Origin: Procambarus clarkii
Taxonomy: Eukaryota; Arthropoda; Malacostraca; Decapoda; Cambaridae
NCBI RefSeq assembly: GCF_040958095.1
Contig: NC_091173.1
Span: forward strand, 12,626,500-12,690,499
Reading direction: 5' to 3'
Length of the DNA: 64,000 nucleotides
The notes below the pieces were generated by a model. It was given only the letters and a program-made list of their open reading frames with translations, ran no database searches and was not told the DNA's origin. Below, piece by piece: positions 1 through 56,190 of this stretch. The translations under genes were made by a program, and so were the position numbers. How positions within the stretch are numbered: the first letter of the stretch is position 1; every line of letters starts with the position of its first letter.

Positions 1-1690
1 ATAATGGGTCCAGAAACTGAACCTATTATATACATCTTACCCTCTTCACTAACGGTACAGTCACTGGATGGATATAGGCTGCATAATAAGTGAACTAAAC
101 TACTTTTTCGATGAAACATCATCATCATGGCTAGTCTAATTTGTACTTTTATTACATACTTAAGACCATATTGGTGTTTTAACTCTAAAATACTATTGTA
201 TTTAATTGGTATTTAAGTCATGTTTCACTTCTTGAGGCCTCTGTAACTCTCCACCAAAGCTCACGGGATGGGTATGGGGTGCATAATAAAGAAATAATTT
301 GAATTGAAGATAAATAACATAGGAAATTTAGGAACATTTAAGCAGACTAATAAAAATAAATAACAGTTTTACTAAGACAGCTAAAACAGTTATGTATTAA
401 TGAAAAGACCTACGATTAATATACAATGTGCAATTGTATTTACATAGCTATTGAAATTAAAAATCCATGTAACTAGCTGACATTATAATTACAAAATGTG
501 CACAATAGATGTAACTGATAATGTAATCTCTGTTTAGATCGTACCCTCTTTATCCTTTGCCGAGGAAATGAACCAGTATAATTCTTAATTTTCATTTGAT
601 GATGACATAATCTCCCCTAAGGGAGTGGACCATTTGGTCCTAATTAAAAAAACCATGGATACTCCACAGTAGACTTGAATCTCACCGCTCAGCCTGTGCG
701 AGCCTCCTCCACTCCCGTTAACACAGGAGGGAACGGTCATCAATGTCCAAGACTTAAGTCTTGAACAGCTTCCCGCTCAGAGGCTCACACTTAGCTACAT
801 CATCGCGGTGTGATTTCTTCAGAGTTTCGGACAAGGAACTCGGCAGTCATACTATAGAATTGATCCTATGAAGTATGATCATAAAGTCAGATTTAGTCTC
901 GCGAGGCCTCCCACATCGGTCTGCTGACTAACGTGAAACAGAGCATCCAATCTTATTAATTATGGAAACTTCAAAACAATAATGGAAATAATATAACTTT
1001 GTTTTAATATGCACAACAAACAGTAAAATATAAATTTTATACCATCAACATTTTATTACTTTTTCATATAATAATAATTTTTTCATATAATAAGTTTATT
1101 GATGTTGTATAGGTTCTCGCGGAAACATATTATGTACAATTTGTATTTTCATAAAAAACGTCATTATGGTATATTATTATAACTATTGGATCTTTGAAAG
1201 CACACGTCTTAAGCTCTACACTATTTAACATACTTATGAACGCCATTGCAAATATTGAAGTTCCGGAAGAAATACAAGTGGGATATGCAGATGTCCTAAT
1301 ACAAGCTCCCACCTTGGACGTGTCTGTATTTTGTTCGCTCGCTCTCGCGGTTGGTTGTGTTTTTCATGTGAGGGAAATCTCTGAACGTTCTTCACCGATG
1401 GCTTTGAAGTTTTGACAAAGCGTTGAATTTGAATATGCGCGTGTTGTTATATACCTACTATATAGATGTCCCACCTGTGACATGTAAAAACATGCATCTT
1501 TTGAAAAACTGTGTTTTTCAAGTGAGGGAACGGTGGGGAGGACGAGGGGATGGGGGAATTATTGGGGGAATGGGGGAATGGTGGGGAAGACGAGGGGATT
1601 TCTATGGGGATTTTTCTATAATTGACGACTATGTAGCGAGTAGATTATCCCAATAATATACTCGCTCCAAATATAGTGTTAATATTCCTG
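1..1690. other. AT-rich stretch, no gene recognised
   Basis: No open frame with recognisable protein similarity is visible. Short blocks near 60-95, 258-290 and 465-560 resemble the repeat at 56275-56430 (shared text such as gtaactagctg and gggtatggggtgcataataaa-like strings), so part of this stretch is old interspersed repeat. Positions 1360-1560 contain two diverged blocks around 'gtgagggaa'. The remainder is unassigned. Confidence 0.5.
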
Positions 1691-3159: not shown

Positions 3160-3649
3160 TATGATAAAATACATCATATGACAATTATATGATTAAAGAA
3201 TTTGGGAAAAAGGAATTTGTAGTGTTCCTCATTAAAATTTGTGAAAATAGAAAACTAGCAGTTTTAAGGAGAGACAAAATCAATTTTGAGCAAAGCATAT
3301 GCTTTGACTAATTATATGAATACAATTTATTTTGTGTAATTTTTATGAACATATTTCGTGTTTCAATGTGGTAATTATTATATCCCTACTCATTGGCTTG
3401 CGGTATATAAATATAATTTGCGCAAAGGTTTAATCGTTGGTCATATATGAAAACTGATAAAAACTATAATATCCTAATTGCATAGTATATGTTGTACTTT
3501 TATAGAATACAATAAAATAATAATTTGCAACAATAACATAAATAATGTTAATAAAACTGTAATTAATAGACATACTAACATAAAAATAGGTGGGATAATA
3601 TCGGTTGTCAGTGACGGGAGGGGCGTCTGGAGGTTGAGCTGACTTAAGC
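3160..3649. other. AT-rich spacer upstream of U1
   Basis: No coding or repeat signal is recognised. The 50 bases just before U1 (about 3600-3649) are locally GC-richer than the rest and could hold a snRNA promoter element, but I cannot identify a proximal sequence element by eye. Confidence 0.3.
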
Positions 3650-3812
3650 ATACTTACCTGGCACAGGAGATACCGTGATCACGAAGGCGGTTTTCCCAAG
3701 GCGAGGCTCACCATTGCACTCCGGTGGCGCTGACCCTTGCGATTAACCCAAATGTGGTTAACTCGAGTGCGAAATTTTTGTTAGCAGGGGACTGCGTTCG
3801 CGCTATCCCCTT
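3650..3812 (+). ncRNA. U1: U1 spliceosomal snRNA (gene or recent pseudogene)
   Basis: About 163 nt is collinear with U1 snRNA, which base-pairs with 5' splice sites during spliceosome assembly in the nucleus. Visible in order: the 5' recognition end atacttacctg (3650-3660); loop I gatcacgaagg, bound by U1-70K in the known particle; loop II attgcactcc, the U1A-type loop; stem III around aacccaaatgtggtt; a Sm site aattttt g (about 3775-3782); and a terminal stem-loop gactgcgttcgcgc. The length matches the roughly 164 nt of metazoan U1. Odd: nucleotides 3664-3665 (ca) mismatch the partner strand cccttgc (3734-3740) in the long-range helix, and one of them also weakens stem I, where human and fly U1 pair fully. 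That suggests either a variant gene or a pseudogene. No snRNA promoter or 3' box could be verified by eye. Confidence 0.9.
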
Positions 3813-6489: not shown

Positions 6490-7227
6490 CTAGCCTTTGC
6501 CTAAATGTCTCGAACATATAGATGAATGTGTGTCTGTAATCTGTTATTAGATCTTGAAACACTTTATCCGTTGGGCGCGTGTTTTAATTTGTGGTGTTTG
6601 TGTTTTTCCGCACCCATGTCTCTCTTCCTCTGTCTTGTTGGTATTTCTTTGTGTCTTTGACCTGTTGATGCCTGTGTGTGTGTGTGTGTGTGTGTCGGAC
6701 TTCCGGTTGACCTCGTTGTGAACCTGTGGTGGAGATTAGTGAGGCGTGGCGAGTTTCCGCCACCTGTGACCTCTGCCTAAGTCCTGACCTGTTGTTTAAG
6801 TCTGATGATCCCTGTGACTGATACAATATGACCTGTGGTGCAACTTGTTGATGAAGATGAATTTGTGTAACATGTAAAGCCAAGATTTGATCTAGTAAAG
6901 TTTAAGACACTACGAAAAAACTATTTGTATATCTTTTTAACGTGAAAAGTTTAAAAAATAAGAAAACATGTGAACAATCTTTCCAACATCACGGTGAAAA
7001 AAACAAATAAGAAATACTCCAGGTAACTTGCGACTCAACTCCATTACCAGCTGAGATCAACCCACATGTCAACTGGCAGTTGGCACTGTGCCTCAGGTAA
7101 GCTTGTGTCAGCATGAGTTGGTTGTGGTCAGCTTGGTTTACCTGTCACTGGAGGTGTGTCATGCCACAGTAATGACACGTCTCCTCTCTCATGTATGAGC
7201 TGGCAACAACCCTGTTGATTCATCCGA
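6490..7227. other. Unassigned spacer
   Basis: Contains a short (TG)n at 6676-6694. Nothing else recognisable. Confidence 0.3.
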
Positions 7228-7334
7228 GTTACAGCCCCGCTCCTGTGCCAGGTAAGTCCACAACGGGCTCACCATAGCACGTGCTACTTGGAACATTTTG
7301 TTTCAAGTAGCGAATCTTAAACAACAACAACCTG
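7228..7334 (+). mobile_element. SINE family 1 (about 100 bp, U1-complementary segment)
   Basis: Order of parts: gttacagccccg; the 18-mer ctcctgtgccaggtaagt (7240-7257); hairpin 1 acgggctcaccatagcacgt; hairpin 2 ctacttggaac/gtttcaagtag; then gaatcttaaacaacaacaac. The (AAC)n end is taken as the 3' tail. Flanks cctgttgatt and cctgttcatt may be a decayed target-site duplication. Confidence 0.8.
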
Positions 7335-8060
7335 TTCATTTGTCTCATAAGAGCTGGCAGAGCTCCGTGTCAAGCCAGTTTGACATTGTTTAACCAGCAA
7401 CACGCGTGTAATACGTCTTGTTTATCCTCCCATATGACGCTCCTGTTGTTTACATCGCTGCCTATGATCCTCCTTTTCTACTTTCTTTGGACTATGTTAT
7501 AATTCTAACCTAAATAGCGTAATTTACATGAGAAGCGGTTTGTAAACTGTTTACCCCGAGGCTCTGAGAGGTGGAGGGTGGGGGAGGGGTGGTGTCAGTA
7601 ATTAACACGTGCACCTGTGATGCCATGGCACCTGGAGACACCTGGAGATCCCTGGAGACACCTAGAGGAGTGGACCAGGAAGGTGACCTCGTCACAGCTC
7701 CCGTGCTAAGGAGTACGAGTTCGGCAATTAAGTATTTATGAAGGCTACTTAGATTAACCATTCATTTATGACCAATAATGAACGACTAGATGATTACAAT
7801 TTTGCATTGATCCAAAACATATATAATAAAAGATATATAGGGGCGAGACGCGTTTACGAATCTCGTGACTTAATTTTTTTTTAAATTAACAAGGTTTAAA
7901 TATATAAATAAGAAAAGTATCAAGATAATAGGCTTAGGGAAGTTAGCCAAATTATAAATATTTAATTGCATCAACTAAAAGTTAGATAACAAATTTCGAA
8001 GCTATCAAGGTCTACTGCAGTATAAATTCCCTTGTCAACCTTAGGCAAGAACTCAATTAC
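7335..8060. other. Unassigned spacer
   Basis: AT-rich with no recognised gene. 7625-7665 has a short cctggagacacctggagatc repetition. Confidence 0.3.
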
Positions 8061-8135
8061 GGGCTCACCATAGCCCGTGCTTCATGGACACTCCGGCCTG
8101 AATAGCTAAATCTTTAACAACAACAACAACAACTT
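8061..8135 (+). mobile_element. SINE family 1, subfamily b (5'-truncated)
   Basis: Carries the terminal hairpin acgggctcaccatagcccgt, then catggacactccggcctg, aatagctaaatcttt and a long (AAC)n tail. The head with the U1-complementary segment is missing. Flanks cttaggcaag and cttagacaag (9 of 10 matching) look like a target-site duplication. Confidence 0.75.
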
Positions 8136-22042: not shown

Positions 22043-22145
22043 TGTTGTTGTTTAAGATTCGCTACTTGGAACAAAAAGTTCCAAGTAGCACGGGCTATGG
22101 TGAGCCCGTAGTGGACTTACCTGGCACAGGATCGGGGCTGTAACT
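22043..22145 (-). mobile_element. SINE family 1, full length, with TSD
   Basis: 103 bp. Plus-strand text runs gttgttgtttaagattcgct, then acaaaaagttccaagtagc, gggctatggtgagcccgta, acttacctggcacagga, tcggggctgtaact. Flanks cagtgagccacc (22031-22042) and cagtgcgccacc (22146-22157) match at 11 of 12. The U1-like segment differs from the 18-mer by one base. Confidence 0.9.
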
Positions 22146-23289: not shown

Positions 23290-23739
23290 CACACATTCAT
23301 GCCCATTACATATAATAATAAAAACATTCCTCCCTCTTTTGCAAAAATATATCTCGGTATTACTACCTAACAAATTAACTAACCACGCCCCACCACCCAG
23401 ACCTCCCCCTCCCCCCCCCCCCTCTCCCCCAATACCCCCACCCCTCCCCCTCCCCCTCCCCACCGCCCACCAGGGGGTGGGAATGTCACACAATCCTGGA
23501 AACTGTGTGACGGGAGGCTGGGGAAAAGGGGTGATGGCGGGGGAAAATATACAGGAAAAACGCGAGAGGAAGAGAGGGGGATTGAAAGGGTAATTTCCCG
23601 AAAACATTAAAATTCATGAAGTACAAAATAGCGTAAAACTGGCGGGAACAAGGCGACTGTTGTGTTCTCAGGAAGGTTGGGACAAGAGGGAATGGTTGTG
23701 ATGGTGGTGGTGGTGGTTAGTGCTTGTGGGCGTGTGTTG

Positions 23740-24597
23740 TGCTTGTTGCTGTGGCTGGACGTGGTGGACTGGTGCTGTGATTGGACGTGATGGGACAGTT
23801 GTTGTGACTGGACGTGATGGGACGGTTGCTGTGATTGGACGTGATGGGACAGTTACCGTGACTGGACGTGATGGGACAGTTGCCGTGACTGGACGTGATG
23901 GGACAGTTGCCGTGACTGGACGTGATGGGACAGTTACCGTGACTGGACGTGATGGGACAGTTACCGTGACTGGACGTGATGGGACAGTTACCGTGACTGG
24001 ACGTGATGGGACAGTTACCGTGTCTGGACGTGATGGGACAGTTACCGTGACTGGACGTGATGGGACAGTTACCGTGACTGGACGTGATGGGACAGTTGCC
24101 GTGACTGGACGTGATGGGACAGTTGCCGTGACTGGACGTGATGGGACAGTTGCCGTGACTGGACGTGATGGGACAGTTGCCGTGACTGGACGTGATGGGA
24201 CAGTTGCCGTGACTGGACGTGATGGGACAGTTGCCGTGACTGGACGTGATGGGACAGTTACCGTGACTGGACGTGATGGAACAGTTACCGTGACTGGACG
24301 TGATGGGACAGTTGCCGTGACTGGACGTGATGGGACAGTTGCCGTGACTGGACGTGATGGGACAGTTGCCGTGACTGGACGTGATGGGACAGTTGCCGTG
24401 ACTGGACGTGATGGGACAGTTGCCGTGACTGGACGTGTTGGGACAGTTACCGTGACTGGACGTGATGGGACAGTTACCGTGGCTGGACGTGATGGGACAG
24501 TTGCCGTGACTGGACGTGATGGGACAGTTACCGTGACTGGACGTGATGGGACAGTTACCGTGACTGGACGTGATGGGACAGTTACCGTAGCAGGATC
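23740..24597. repeat. 27-bp minisatellite, about 30 copies
   Basis: The unit contains gtgactggacgtgatgggac and agttacc or agttgcc. Because 27 is divisible by 3 and the unit lacks stops, both strands stay open for more than 300 codons (TGRDGTVAV on plus, PSRPVTATV on minus). I see no start context, domain or splice evidence, so this is annotated as a repeat, not a CDS. Variation is almost entirely acc/gcc. Confidence 0.93.
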
Positions 24598-24766
24598 CGT
24601 AACCTGCTTCACCTCCACCTCTCTCTCTCTCTTATCTCTTATCTCTCTAATTCTCTCTTAGAGAATTAGACCCTATTGCAGACCCTTTAAATAATGTCTG
24701 CAATAGCCCCCCCCCCTTGCCGGACTTCGGCTCCTGGGCGCCAGGTAATCCTGAGGACCATACAGG

Positions 24767-25554: not shown

Positions 25555-28314
25555 GTGGTTCGTTAAGAACAGTACATTAGTGGTTCGTTAAGAACAGTAC
25601 ATTAGTGGTTCGTTAAGAACAGTACATTAGTGGTTCGTTAGGAACAGTACATTAGTGGTTCGTTAGGAACACAGTACATTAGTGGTTCGTTAAGAACAGT
25701 ACATTAGTGGTTCGTTAGGAACACAGTACATTAGTGGTTCGTTAAGAACAGTACATTAGTGGTTCGTTAAGAACAGTACATTAGTGGTTCGTTAGGAACA
25801 GTACATTAGTGGTTCGTTAAGAACAGTACATTAGTGGTTCGTTAGGAACAGTACATTAGTGGTTCGTTAGGAACACAGTACATTAGTGGTTCGTTAAGAA
25901 CAGTACATTAGTGGTTCGTTAGGAACACAGTACATTAGTGGTTCGTTAAGAACAGTACATTAGTGGTTCGTTAAGAACAGTACATTAGTGGTTCGTTAAG
26001 AACAGTACATTAGTGGTTCGTTAAGAACACAGTACATTAGTGGTTCGTTAAGAACACAGTACATTAGTGGTTCGTTAGGAACACAGAACATTAGTGGTTC
26101 GTTAGGAACACAGTACATTAGTGGTTCATTAGGAACACAGTACATTAGTGGTTCGTTAGGAACACAGTACATTAGTGGTTCGTTAAGAACACAGTACATT
26201 AGTGGTTCGTTAAGAACACAGTACATTAGTGGTTCGTTAAGAACACAGTACATTAGTGGTTCGTTAAGAACACAGTACATTAGTGGTTCGTTAAGAACAC
26301 AGTACATTAGTGGTTCGTTAGGAACACAGTACATTAGTGGTTCGTTAAGAACACAGTACATTAGTGGTTCATTAGGAACACAGTACATTAGTGGTTCGTT
26401 AGGAACACAGTACATTAGTGGTTCGTTAAGAACACAGTACATTAGTGGTTCGTTAGGAACACAGTACATTAGTGGTTCGTTAAGAACACAGTACATTAGT
26501 GGTTCGTCAAGAACAGTGCATTAGTGGTTCACCAAGAACACAGTACATTAGTAGTTCGTCAAGAACAGTGCATTAGTGGTTCACCAAGAACACAGTGCAT
26601 TAGTGGTTCGTTAAGAACACAGTACATTAGTGGTTCGTTAGGAACACAGTGCATTAGTGGTTCATTAAGAACACAGTGCATTAGTGGTTCGTTAGGAACA
26701 CAGTACATTAGTGGTTCGTCAAGAACAGTGCATTAGTGGTTCACCAAGAACGCAGTACATTAGTGGTTCGTCAAGAACAGTGTATTATTGGTTCGTTAAG
26801 AACACAGTGCATTAGTGGTTCGTCAAGAACAGTGCATTAGTGGTTAGTTAAGAACACAGTACATTAGTGGTTCATTAAGAACATTAGTGGTTCGTTAAGA
26901 ACACAGTACATTAGTGGTTCGTTAAGAACACAGTACATTAGTGGTTCGTTAGGAACACAGTACATTAGTGGTTCGTTAGGAACACAGTGCATTAGTGGTT
27001 CGTTAAGAACACAGTGCATTAGTGGTTCGTTAAGAACACAGTACATTAGTGGTTCGTTAGGAACACAGTGCATTAGTGGTTCGTCAAGAACAGTGCATTA
27101 GTGGTTCACCAAGAACACAGTACATTAGTGGTTCGTCAAGAACAGTGTATTATTGGTTCGTTAAGAACACAGTGCATTAGTGGTTCGTCAAGAACAGTGC
27201 ATTAGTGGTTAGTTAAGAACACAGTACATTAGTGGTTCATTAAGAACATTAGTGGTTCGTTAAGAACACAGTACATTAGTGGTTCGTTAAGAACACAGTA
27301 CATTAGTGGTTCGTTAGGAACACAGTACATTAGTGGTTCGTTAGGAACACAGTGCATTAGTGGTTCGTTACGAACACAGTACATTAGTGGTTCGTTAAGA
27401 ACACAGTACATTAGTGGTTCGTTAAGAGCACAGTACATTAGTGGTTCGTTAAGAACACAGTACATTAGTGGTTCGTTAAGAGCACAGTACATTAGTGGTT
27501 CATTAGGAACACAGTCCATTAGTGGTTCGTTAAGAACAGTGCATTAATGGTTCGTTAAGAACAGTACATTAGTGGTTCGTTAGGAACACAGTGCATTAGT
27601 GGTTCGTTAAGAACAGTGCATTAGTGGTTCGTTAGGAACACAGTGCATTAGTGGTTCGTTAAGAACACAGTGCATTAGTGGTTCGTTAAGAACACAGTGC
27701 ATTAGTAGTTCGTTAAGAACACAGTACATTAGTGGTTCGTTAAGAACACAGTACATTAGTGGTTCGTTAAGAACACAGTGCATTAGTGGTTCGTTAAGAA
27801 CACAGTACATTAGTGGTTCGTTAAGAACAGTGCATTAGTGGTTCGTTAAGAACACAGTGCATTAGTGGTTCGTTAAGACCACAGTGCATTAGTAGTTCGT
27901 TAAGAACACAGTACATTAGTGGTTCGTTAAGAACACAGTACATTAGTGGTTCGTTAAGAACACAGTGCATTAGTGGTTCGTTAAGAACACAGTACATTAG
28001 TGGTTCGTTAAGAACAGTGCATTAGTGGTTCGTTAAGAACTCAGTGCATTAGTGGTTCGTTAAGAACAGTACATTAGTGGTTCGTTAAGAACACAGTACA
28101 TTAGTGGTTCGTTAAGAACAGTACATTAGTGGTTCGTTAAGAACACAGTGCATTAGTGGTTCGTTAAGAACACAGTGCATTAGTGGTTCGTTAAGAACAG
28201 TGCATTGGTGGTTCGTTAAGAACACAGTACATTAGTGGTTCGTTAAGAACAGTACATTAGTGGTTCGTTAAGAACACAGTACATTAGTGGTTCGTTAAGA
28301 ACACAATACGTAAT
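25555..28314. repeat. Large minisatellite, 25/27-bp units, about 105 copies
   Basis: The unit is acattagtggttcgttaaga with acagt or acacagt, so 25 and 27 bp versions mix along 2.76 kb. Variants (gtgcatt, ttaggaac, tcaccaag, tagtagttcg) recur in order. A block containing tgtattattg repeats at 26781 and 27146 (365 bp apart). A block containing attagtagtt repeats at 27701 and 27888 (187 bp apart). Several minus-strand frames (NEPLMYCV repeats) are artefacts of the 27-bp phase. Confidence 0.97.
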
Positions 28315-41515: not shown

Positions 41516-41616
41516 AAGTTTCAGCCCCGCTCCTGTGCCAGGTAAGTCCATCACGGGCTCACCATAGCCCGTGCTACTTGGAACTTTTAGTTCCCAGTAG
41601 CTGAATCTTAAACAAC
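41516..41616 (+). mobile_element. SINE family 1, full length, with 14-bp TSD
   Basis: 101 bp enclosed by exact aacgttgaacaaac at 41502-41515 and 41617-41630. Parts: aagtttcagccccg; ctcctgtgccaggtaagt (41530-41547, exact complement of U1 3652-3669); tcacgggctcaccatagccc; ctacttggaacttttagttc; ctgaatcttaaacaac. This copy defines the full-length unit. No pol III A/B boxes are visible. Confidence 0.93.
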
Positions 41617-41821
41617 AACGTTGAACAAACGTCGATCCAACGTTACTCGAGCATGATTAAATACACTAGTCAATGCTGCTCATGCAAAATATTAAACTAA
41701 AAAATATATATACTGTACACACAGCCGTAACTACACACAGAGATCACACTAACGTGATGCATCAAATGAATCTTACGGGATCCAGTAAGTTCAGTAGAAC
41801 TTCGGTTTCAACTCTTTTTAC

Positions 41822-45570: not shown

Positions 45571-45684
45571 CTATTACGACGATGTTTGCCCTTTAGGTAG
45601 AGTATACGTCAAAATGCGACGTTCTATTAGGAGGACGATGTTGAGAATAGAGCGACTATAAGCCTGGCAGGTCTAACAAACGGT

Positions 45685-45772
45685 AAGTTCACTACGGGCT
45701 CACCATAGCCCGTGCTACTTGGAACTTTTTGTTCCAGGTAGCGAATCTTAAACAATAACAACAACAAACAAA
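45685..45772 (+). mobile_element. SINE family 1, 5'-truncated
   Basis: ggtaagttcactacgggctc, accatagcccgtgctacttg, actttttgttccaggtagcg, aatcttaaacaataacaaca. Only the last bases of the U1-complementary segment remain. Confidence 0.85.
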
Positions 45773-48137: not shown

Positions 48138-48245
48138 TTGTTGTTATTATTATAGATTCAGCTACTCAGAACAAGTTCCAAGTAGCACGGGCTATGGTGA
48201 GCCCGTAGTGGCTAACCTGGCACAGGAGCGGGGCTGTGTGATGTG
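48138..48245 (-). mobile_element. SINE family 1, full length, with 15-bp TSD
   Basis: 108 bp between exact copies of tgtggggatagcatg at 48123-48137 and 48246-48260. Contains ttgttgttattattatagat, agttccaagtagcacgggct, ggtgagcccgtagtgg, ctaacctggcacaggagcgg. Here the gtaagt of the U1-complementary segment has decayed (acttacc is ctaacc). Confidence 0.93.
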
Positions 48246-51205: not shown

Positions 51206-51224
51206 TTCCGCCACTTTGGCGGGC

Positions 51225-51286
51225 TCACCATAGCCCGTGCTACATGGACACTCCGTCCTGAATAGCTAAATCCTTAACAACAATAA
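51225..51286 (+). mobile_element. SINE family 1b, 62-bp truncated copy with 19-bp TSD
   Basis: tcaccatagcccgtgctaca, tggacactccgtcctgaata, gctaaatccttaacaac between exact ttccgccactttggcgggc at 51206-51224 and 51287-51305. The last bases of the upstream duplication overlap the element's own cgggc, so the 5' edge is ambiguous by up to 5 bp. Confidence 0.92.
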
Positions 51287-51420: not shown

Positions 51421-52300
51421 CCTACCTTGAGGTTACCTTGAGGTGCTTCCGGGGCTTAGCGTCCCCGCGGCCCGGTCGTCGACCAGGACTCCTGGTTGCC
51501 GGACTGATCAACCAGGCTGTTGGACGCGGCTGCTCGCAGCCTGACGTATGAGTCACAGCCTGGTTGATCAGGTATCCCTTGGCGGTGCTTATCCAGTTCT
51601 CTCTTGAACACTGTGAGGGGTCGGCCAGTTATGCCCCTTATGTGTAGTGGAAGCGTGTTGAACAGTCTCGGGCCTCTGATGTTGATGAGTTCTCTCTCAG
51701 AGTACCTGTTGCACCTCTGTTTTTCAACGGGGGTATTCTGCACATCCTGCCATGTCTTCTGGTCTCATGTGATGTTATTTCTGTGTGCAGGTTTGGGACC
51801 AGCCCCTCTAATATTTTCCACGTGTAAATTATTATGTACCTCTCCCGCCTGCGCTCAAGGGAGTACAGTTTTAGGCTCTTTAGTCGGTCCCAATAGTTTA
51901 GATGTTTTACTGAGTGGATTCTAGCAGTAAAGGATCTCTGCACGCTCTCCAGGTCAGCAATTTCTCCAGCTTTGAAAGGTGCTGTCATTGTGCAGCAGTA
52001 CTCCACTCTAGAGAGCACAAGCGTTTTGAAAAGTATCATCATCGGTATAGCATCTCTAGTGTGAAAAGTTCTTGTTATCCAACCTGTCATTTTTCTTGCA
52101 GTTGTGACGGCTACTTTATTGTGTTCTTTAAAGGTAAGGTCTTCCGACATGAGTACACCCAGATCCTTTACATTGCCTTTTCGTTCTATGTTATGATTTG
52201 CCTGAGTTTTGTACGTGGTTTCCGTTTTTATATTTTCATTTTTTCCATAGCGCATGAGCTGGAACTTATCTTCGTTAAACACCATATTATTTTCTGTAGC
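51421..52300 (-). mobile_element. LINE reverse-transcriptase C-terminal half with 3' end
   Basis: Minus-strand frame 52285-51638 (215 codons): FNEDKFQLMRYGKN, KGNVKDLGVLMSEDLTFKEH, ARKMTGWITRTFHTRD, LFKTLVLSRVEYCCTM, FKAGEIADLESVQRSFTARI, HLNYWDRLKSLKLYSLERRR, YIIIYTWKILEGLVPN. It continues after one frameshift near 51700 as RYSERELINIRGPRLFNTLP, GITGRPLTVFKRELDKHRQG, IPDQPGCDSYVRLRAAASNS. This is the thumb and C-terminus of a CR1/Jockey-like reverse transcriptase, the enzyme that copies LINE RNA. The 3' end (cctggtcgacgaccgggccg, cggggacgctaagccccgga, agcacctcaaggtaacctca) is shared with a SINE. It is the longest and least damaged LINE frame in the window, 5'-truncated at a GGAA tract. Confidence 0.92.
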
Positions 52301-52309
52301 CCACCAGGG

Positions 52310-52615: not shown

Positions 52616-52970
52616 TAGTGTAGTTAAGACACTTGCGGAGATTCGACATTACTTGGTAGTCATGTGTGTGTGATATGAAGCATTTGCCGCACGGGAAGAT
52701 ATAATTGTGTGTGGGAAGAGTTCGTGCTTTACACTTTGCGTACTAATGATCTTAATAAATTACGGATTTATCCACTGTATTATGTCCTCCCGAACTTTAT
52801 TACAAGAATAATATTACACATCGGATAGAATTGTAGAGGTTCAGTAAACGGAATAAAACGGGTATAAGGTATAGGGGTGAGAGGGGGGGGATATAGTGGA
52901 GGGGGGGTTGGGGGGGGAAGATAGTGGGGGGTAGAGATGATGTAGTACAAGTTAAAGTACGTTTCTTGTG
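52616..52970. other. Unassigned spacer
   Basis: 52865-52935 is G-rich. Nothing else recognised. Confidence 0.3.
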
Positions 52971-52974
52971 GTGG

Positions 52975-53422
52975 TAGTGGACACCCCCCCCCCCTACCGT
53001 TGTGTGGTAGTGACACCCCCCTACCGTTGTGTGGTAGTGACACCCCCCTACCGTTGTGTGGTTGTGACACCCCCCTACCGTTGTGTGGTAGTGACACCCC
53101 CCTACCGTTGTGTGGTAGTGACACCCCCCTACCGTTGTGTGGTTGTGACACCCCCCTACCGTTGTGTGGTTGTGACACCCCCCTACCGTTGTGTGGTTGT
53201 GACACCCCCCTACCGTTGTGTGGTTGTGACACCCCCCTACCGTTGTGTGGTTGTGACACCCCCCTACCGTTGTGTGACTGTGACACCCCCCTACCGTTGT
53301 GTGACTGTGACACCCCCCTACCGTTGTGTGGTAGTGACACCCCCCTACCGTTGTGTGGTTGTGACACCCCACTACCGTTGTGTGGTTGTGACACCCCCCT
53401 ACCGTTGTGTGGTTGTGACAGA
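52975..53422. repeat. 27-bp minisatellite, about 16 copies
   Basis: The unit contains gtgacacccccctaccgttg and tgtggtt or tgtggta. It is open on both strands for more than 150 codons because 27 is divisible by 3. The same core forms a 30-bp array at 56941-57155. Confidence 0.97.
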
Positions 53423-53620
53423 CACCAAGCACGACCCAGAAGACCCTGTGAGTGAGCCAGCCAAGAGAACCACCGCTGAAGACGGCTAAAGATGGTATCT
53501 TAAGCCTTCGACGAATCTTTAGACGAACTCTTCATCTTGAACTCTAAAAGGAGACAACTCTCAAGAGTCTCTCTTAAGAGGACAATGACACCTAACCTCT
53601 GAGTGGTGTGACCCGAGGGA

Positions 53621-55832: not shown

Positions 55833-55983
55833 CAGCACAGCCCTGCTCCTGTGCCAGGTAAGTCCACTGTGGGCTTACCATAGCCAGTGCTACTTGCCCC
55901 GCTCCTGTGCCAGGTAAGTTACGGGCTCACCATAGCCCGTGCTACTTGGAACTTGTTCCGAGTAGCTGAATCTAAAACAACAA
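55833..55983 (+). mobile_element. SINE family 1, tandem dimer
   Basis: A first monomer cut at gctacttg (55836-55895) is followed directly by a second (55896-55983). Both carry the exact 18-mer ctcctgtgccaggtaagt (55846-55863 and 55902-55919). tcctctcttt upstream (about 55821) and tcctctctct downstream (about 55986) look like one target-site duplication. Confidence 0.85.
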
Positions 55984-55996
55984 CATCCTCTCTCTC

Positions 55997-56055: not shown

Positions 56056-56077
56056 CCTCTCTCTCGCACACGGTGAA

Positions 56078-56190
56078 GTTACAGCCCCGCTCCTGTGCCA
56101 GGTAAGTCCGCTACGGGCTCACCATACTCCGTGCTACGGTGAGTTCCGGAACTTTTTGTTCCTATTAGCTCAATCTAACACAACGACAAC
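56078..56190 (+). mobile_element. SINE family 1
   Basis: gttacagccccg, exact 18-mer at 56090-56107, tacgggctcaccatactccg, ggaactttttgttcctatta, ctcaatctaacacaac. Hairpin 2 carries a short insertion (ggtgagttcc). Confidence 0.88.

Follow-up and report, generated by a model that had tools for sequence, protein, structure and literature searches.

A SINE of Procambarus clarkii carries near its 5´ end 18 bases, CTCCTGTGCCAGGTAAGT, that are antisense to nucleotides 3–20 of U1 snRNA. On balance, this head is probably an antisense cDNA copied from the 5´ end of U1, which was captured, joined to a LINE tail and then amplified. Copies of the element and a U1 gene occur together in the 64,000-nucleotide stretch of contig NC_091173.1 that was analysed (the window). 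Judged from its own sequence and from the loci compared with it, this U1 locus is one ordinary member of a family of many gene copies.

The U1 gene in the window has a canonical fold

The U1 snRNA gene at 3650..3812 (+) matches the Rfam model RF00003 over its full length (157.7 bits, E 1.4e-40), in agreement with the first-pass annotation of a U1 copy at this position, and its minimum-energy fold is canonical. The 5´ strand of helix H, GCAC (U1 12–15, 3661..3664, +), pairs with the 3´ strand GTGC (U1 118–121, 3767..3770, +), both in the alignment to the Rfam model and in the predicted minimum-energy fold. The first-pass annotation had paired 3661–3667 with 3734–3740 and had concluded that the bases at 3664–3665 break the helix. 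The true partner of 3661–3664 is GTGC at 3767–3770, to which it is fully complementary, and CCCTTGC at 3734–3740 is the 3´ strand of stem-loop II. The CCUUG strand within it pairs with CAAGG at 3697–3701 in the Rfam alignment and in the unconstrained minimum-energy fold. Forcing the earlier pairing yields −39.5 kcal/mol, compared with −53.4 kcal/mol for the canonical U1 fold, a cost of ~14 kcal/mol. The 7-bp helix between U1 12–18 and 3734–3740 was rejected because the Rfam alignment and the fold energies identify 3734–3740 as the wrong partner. To our knowledge, the apparent complementarity of human and fly U1 in this register is incidental and corresponds to no accepted U1 helix.

C15 is paired, and only A16 (3665), at the foot of stem I, has no standard partner; stem I begins after A16, and the canonical U1 junction emerges from the Rfam alignment as well as from the unconstrained minimum-energy fold. 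In human U1, helix H is formed by GCAG with CUGC, and base 15 is G15. Relative to this familiar human sequence, C15–G118 is a compensated pair, and helix H is intact because the base at 118 matches C15. The proposal that the U1 of this species really differs is correct in that C15 replaces G15, with base 118 compensating. A full-length covariance-model match, the canonical four-way junction and the 5´ end ACUUACCU, all of which characterize a functional U1, are found at this locus, and a putative promoter element upstream is recognized by its conservation only. This candidate element, TAACATAAAAATAGGTG (3576..3592, +; about −74 to −58), is proximal sequence element-like by placement and conservation. 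Of the 21 other distinct U1 upstream sequences, 20 align with it, four of them reading CCATAA; in this alignment it is absent from L038, the 3´-truncated U1 copy.

U1 loci across the genome share the same word

At least 42 U1 matches were listed in the genome, 34 of them above the cut-off. The U1 copy number is a lower bound, with 42 scored of 65,035 first-look candidates. The best 30 of the 42 were compared, and the 12 lowest-scoring were left out. All 30, spread over nine contigs, carry GCACAGG, with GCAC at 12–15 followed by A16. Opposite GCAC in helix H stands GTGC in 28 loci and GTGT, which can still pair, in the other two. Moreover, the pattern ACTTACCTGGCNNNGGAGATACC, in which bases 14–16 are free, has nine matches in the genome, and ACA occupies the NNN position in every one of them; five are full-length U1 genes and four are short U1 fragments. 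Among the compared loci, U1 genes that all carry GCACAGG together with a compensating change (G118) are what was found, which is the outcome that the first-pass annotation had itself named as refuting its reading.

A U1 gene identical to that of the window lies 7.7 kb upstream of it, beyond the window edge. A U3 snoRNA gene (684–882, −; Rfam RF00012, 117.5 bits), 2.8 kb from the U1 gene, sits between these two U1 copies of contig C24. On contig C50, nine U1 genes at 16.236–16.277 Mb (L022–L030) are spaced ~4.9 kb apart and are identical across the U1 region, forming a tandem U1 array.

The antisense U1 word heads an abundant SINE

The U1 5´-end pattern is ATACTTACCTGGCACAGGAGA. The 18-mer ACTTACCTGGCACAGGAG (U1 nt 3–20) occurs exactly at 3652..3669 (+) in the U1 gene and, as was first reported, on the minus strand at 7240, 41530, 55846, 55902 and 56090, and near copies lie at 22115 (one mismatch) and 48211 (two mismatches). 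With up to three mismatches, the window holds eight matches, U1 itself included, versus 0.03 expected. In the 4.03 Gb genome, the exact word was found 35,366 times (17,669 + 17,697), a number of words that includes tandem units and U1 genes and is not a count of insertions; the same pattern read backwards gave no exact match genome-wide. The longest exact word common to antisense U1 and the SINE consensus is 18 bases, whereas dinucleotide shuffles of the consensus reached at most 11, in 4 of 1,500. In the window and the fetched loci, short U1 matches within SINE units are exactly U1 3–20 in 72 of 77 cases, a set in which overlapping loci are counted repeatedly and L001–L008 were selected by that very word. 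A second similarity, in sense orientation, links GGCTCACCAT in the SINE hairpin to U1 56–65; it was noticed post hoc and is too weak to build on (13 of 1,500 shuffles reach 10 bases). U1-like words had no match in IMG/VR and three in prokaryote genomes (257 Gb; ~7 expected by our own estimate), none of which is U1 by Rfam.

Oriented so that the tail is 3´, the SINE reads AGTTACAGCCCCG-CTCCTGTGCCAGGTAAGT-CCAC-TACGGGCTCACCATAGCCCG-TG-CTACTTGGAAC(T)nGTTCCGAGTAG-CTGAATCTTAA-(ACA)n. Its layout is thus the reverse complement of U1 20..3, CCAC, a LINE-like tail and (ACA)n. The whole head is CCCCGCTCCTGTGCCAGGTAAGTCCACTACGGGC; the ~13 nt that precede the U1 word (AGTTACAGCCCCG) and the CCAC that follows it are not U1, and the match is limited to 18 nt. 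As expected of a SINE, the element is short (~105 bp), dispersed and present in very high copy number, as the head words counted above attest, and a 37-base internal word has 4,340 genome copies. It also has target-site duplications and a short 3´ repeat tail, (ACA)n. An exact flanking direct repeat of at least 8 bp, usually 8–15 bp, was found in 28 of 48 copies, although at least six of the 28 are doubtful, as the repeat found does not adjoin the element. The 48 copies are what is left of 91 rows after removal of matches that stop short of consensus base 85 and of repeated entries for one copy; they were chosen through exact words, most come from contig C1 and the window, and some lie in duplicated regions.

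Full copies in the window are located at 7227..7331 (+; 95% to the consensus), where the antisense-U1 head is followed by the LINE-like tail, at 22043..22145 (−; 98%, one mismatch in the U1 word), at 41517..41619 (+; by consensus match, 14-bp target-site duplication AACGTTGAACAAAC) and at 56077..56190 (+; 85%). The copy at 48139..48237 (−) has two mismatches in the U1 word and a 15-bp target-site duplication, CATGCTATCCCCACA. Another, recognized by consensus match at 45682..45763 (+), is truncated inside the U1-complementary word, and the copy at 55837..55985 (+) contains the head-plus-hairpin unit twice, with two U1 words. The tail is predicted to fold into two hairpins and the head to be largely open. 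In some copies the head-plus-hairpin unit is repeated at least twice, with a period of 56, 52 or 41 bp, so single SINE insertions carry many U1-complementary words. Such tandem units occur in L007, L008, L040, L066 and at 55837–55985 of the window, with ~8 units in the longest among the matches listed. Along contig C1, exact SINE words among the matches listed look unevenly distributed, with few below 28 Mb and many between 28 and 46 Mb.

The head was also surveyed in copies selected by a downstream word. It is present in 22 of 25 distinct copies (30 loci minus five with an identical 60-base upstream sequence), 11 of which have the exact 18-mer, and 15 changes were counted in the 396 bases (22 x 18). 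These counts show that the head is retained, apparently with no special constraint on the 18-mer, the changes being those within the 18-mer alone. Tails without the U1 word were found at 8050..8128 (+; 79% to consensus bases 28–107), at 51220..51286 (+; 79% to consensus 38–105), at L065:989 and at L069:2398. These four headless copies start within ~8 bases of TACGGG, the junction of the head in the headed form, with flanking repeats identified by eye; the copy at 8050..8128 has the imperfect duplication CTTAG(G/A)CAAG and that at 51220..51286 the duplication TTCCGCCACTTTGG. In four others (window 45682, L056, L060 and L062), the U1 word is lost wholly or partly at the 5´ end; these are too few to attribute the loss to a U1 duplex that blocks reverse transcription. 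The SINE copy at ~1466–1580 of L062 has unrelated sequence before TAAGTCCAC, possibly a different head.

In the five SINE loci scanned, the Rfam U1 model did not report the SINE, and nothing with E up to 5 covers the SINE body. No pol III A or B box was evident in the SINE by eye, and no tRNA match lies over it in five loci; one sub-threshold, low-complexity tRNA match touches its 5´ edge in L063. Elsewhere in the window, an RT-like ORF (51638–52309, −) runs into a 3´ sequence different from the tail of the SINE, and no relative of this ORF was found in viral contigs. Minisatellite-like arrays lie at 23668–24661, 26000–26524, 27900–28310 and 52946–53489, several with open frames on both strands.

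Capture of antisense U1 cDNA as the probable origin of the head

The proposed origin begins with target-primed reverse transcription, through which a LINE reverse transcriptase would insert a short LINE 3´ end (~70 nt). On the opposite side of the break, the reverse transcriptase would be primed inside a U1 RNA and copy it in the direction of its 5´ end (twin priming), and the antisense U1 5´ fragment would thereby be joined to the 5´ side of the LINE tail. Amplification of the composite by the LINE machinery would then produce the ~35,000 exact U1 words, with the head-plus-hairpin unit in tandem in some copies. Capture is favoured by features read directly from the sequences: the identity to U1 3–20, its orientation, the duplications, the form of the tail, the headless relatives and the chimeric locus L075. 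The direction from U1 to the SINE is suggested because U1 is a constrained gene and U1 bases outside 3–20 do not continue the match. The earlier proposal that the SINE head came from a variant U1 RNA is thus retained as to its source, which would, however, be the ordinary U1 of the species, in antisense and as captured cDNA. Twin priming is the route that we infer. The LINE origin of the tail is likewise suggested by its form, as no LINE bearing this tail was seen in the window and the fetched loci. Among the SINE copies examined, none was an intermediate that matches U1 over more than the 18 nt.

L075 is one clear, independent antisense-U1/repeat-tail chimera, and its form is decisive. It consists of ATGAGTTCC, the reverse complement of U1 36..1 with one mismatch, a tail beginning TACCTCAATAAACTTATTTCAATTTC and a second ATGAGTTCC, and a few joint bases are common to both parts. 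It has the architecture of the SINE with the tail of another repeat, which is also found without U1 in L066 and L019. The first two nucleotides of U1 are 2´-O-methylated, and a match that stops at nt 3 would fit a reverse transcriptase halting there; unlike the SINE match, the antisense U1 of L075 appears to reach nt 1. Three further loci carry U1 pieces that stop within, or close to, the loop of stem I or stem II. L070 contains U1 1–32 followed by ATCAATCATC, with a clear duplication, CATGTAAGCAT, and L069 (U1 1–33) and L076 (U1 1–70) have weaker flanking repeats, short or imperfect. All three pieces are sense, and none is antisense-plus-tail. That L075 is the single antisense-U1 chimera among the loci examined, with a tail from another family, and that the three other fragments are sense weigh against capture.

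The main rival remains a donor-derived head, completed by luck or selection. The head would be a former exon–intron junction with a strong 5´ splice site, so that 10 of its 18 bases match U1 for that reason and the other eight by luck or selection. The sense SINE indeed reads CCAGGTAAGT, a perfect splice donor in a head predicted to be mostly unpaired, and the computed U1 duplex energy falls from −12.4 (nt 1–11) to −36.4 kcal/mol with the full word. However, eight further exact bases (U1 13–20) would arise by chance with a probability of ~1.5e-5 by our own arithmetic, and selection for pairing is unexpected in U1 12–20, a segment already engaged in helix H and stem I, with A16 between them. 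Donor function alone therefore does not predict the last eight matches (13–20), and we know of no use of U1 13–20 in donor recognition. The position of the eight extra bases in helix H and stem I makes descent more probable than function, and a junction origin is rather unlikely, albeit worth serious consideration.

More doubtful still is a reading in which the head is itself LINE 3´-end sequence, the SINE being the terminal fragment of that LINE and the U1 match having been acquired in the LINE. The LINE-like hairpins and short repeat end of the tail fit such a fragment, as do the headless copies with duplications. However, among the copies examined by eye, no common sequence was seen in front of the head except in duplicated loci, and the 5´ ends of the SINE fall mostly at AGTTACAG, CACAGCCCC, GACGGCACC or CCCGCTCC. 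Finally, conversion or chimerism of the window U1 locus by SINE sequence, raised in the first-pass annotation from the 18 bases identical in the two, is extremely improbable: with GCACAGG in 30 of 30 U1 loci on nine contigs, opposite a helix H strand of GTGC (28/30) or GTGT (2/30), conversion of one locus is not needed and, as a local event, finds no support in these loci. The U1 locus is normal.

Sense SINE RNA is predicted to contain a perfect 5´ splice site, CAG/GTAAGT, mostly open to the U1 snRNP. We consider it a long shot that SINE RNA, wherever transcribed, forms up to 18 base pairs with U1, recruits the U1 snRNP in this way and is thereby protected or retained in the nucleus, which would explain the retained word and its tandem multiplication other than by chance drift; SINE insertions might then act as splice donors. 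If capture of antisense U1 cDNA is the correct origin, a host small RNA that is captured in antisense by twin priming can give rise to a successful SINE family. One genome would then hold ~35,000 perfect U1-binding words (splice donors), a natural test of the effect of U1 recruitment on transposons and neighbouring genes.

Comparison with known systems

Class III pseudogenes of U1, U2 and U3 are truncated snRNA retropseudogenes. L069, L070 and L076 resemble them in their U1 5´ parts, whose ends fall inside or beside the loop of stem I or stem II; in contrast to the crayfish SINE, no sign of amplification was seen. The head of SINEU is reportedly an snRNA in sense orientation, as Kojima is said to have described in 2015. 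The crayfish SINE is similar in that its 5´ part is proposed to come from an snRNA, but its U1 part is antisense, 18 nt long and lacks an evident promoter. Set against the U1/U2-homologous head by which SINEU is recognized, the crayfish head amounts to 18 antisense nucleotides, and in the five loci scanned the SINE is not among the matches to the Rfam U1 model. The existence of SINEs with snRNA heads is recorded for SINEU in the available parts of two sources (PMC8010984, PMC7245038).

A survey of decapod repeats describes a recent SINE increase in Procambarus, with more low-divergence SINE sequence in the two species of that genus, and, in the part of it that is available, names no U1-headed family (PMC10454600). 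In the literature searched, the scope of which leaves out most subscription papers, no antisense-U1 SINE family was seen among the matches listed, and the literal SINE and U1 words did not occur.

The closest parallel is with human LINE-1 chimeras, as described in the available portion of one study (PMC13174262). The U5 pieces in these chimeras are all 3´-truncated and 80% of them are antisense, as are most half-tRNA and 5S pieces; for the antisense chimeras, the authors proposed twin priming (PMC13174262). The commonest chimeras, however, contain U6 (70.9% of 253), are sense and are ascribed to template switching or ligation (PMC13174262). This predominance of sense U6 among LINE-1 snRNA chimeras counts against antisense capture. 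The antisense LINE-1 chimeras share with the origin proposed for the crayfish SINE an antisense small-RNA piece 5´ of a LINE end, formation in one event and target-site duplications (PMC13174262). They are reported as individual insertions, whereas the crayfish composite is apparently a very large family.
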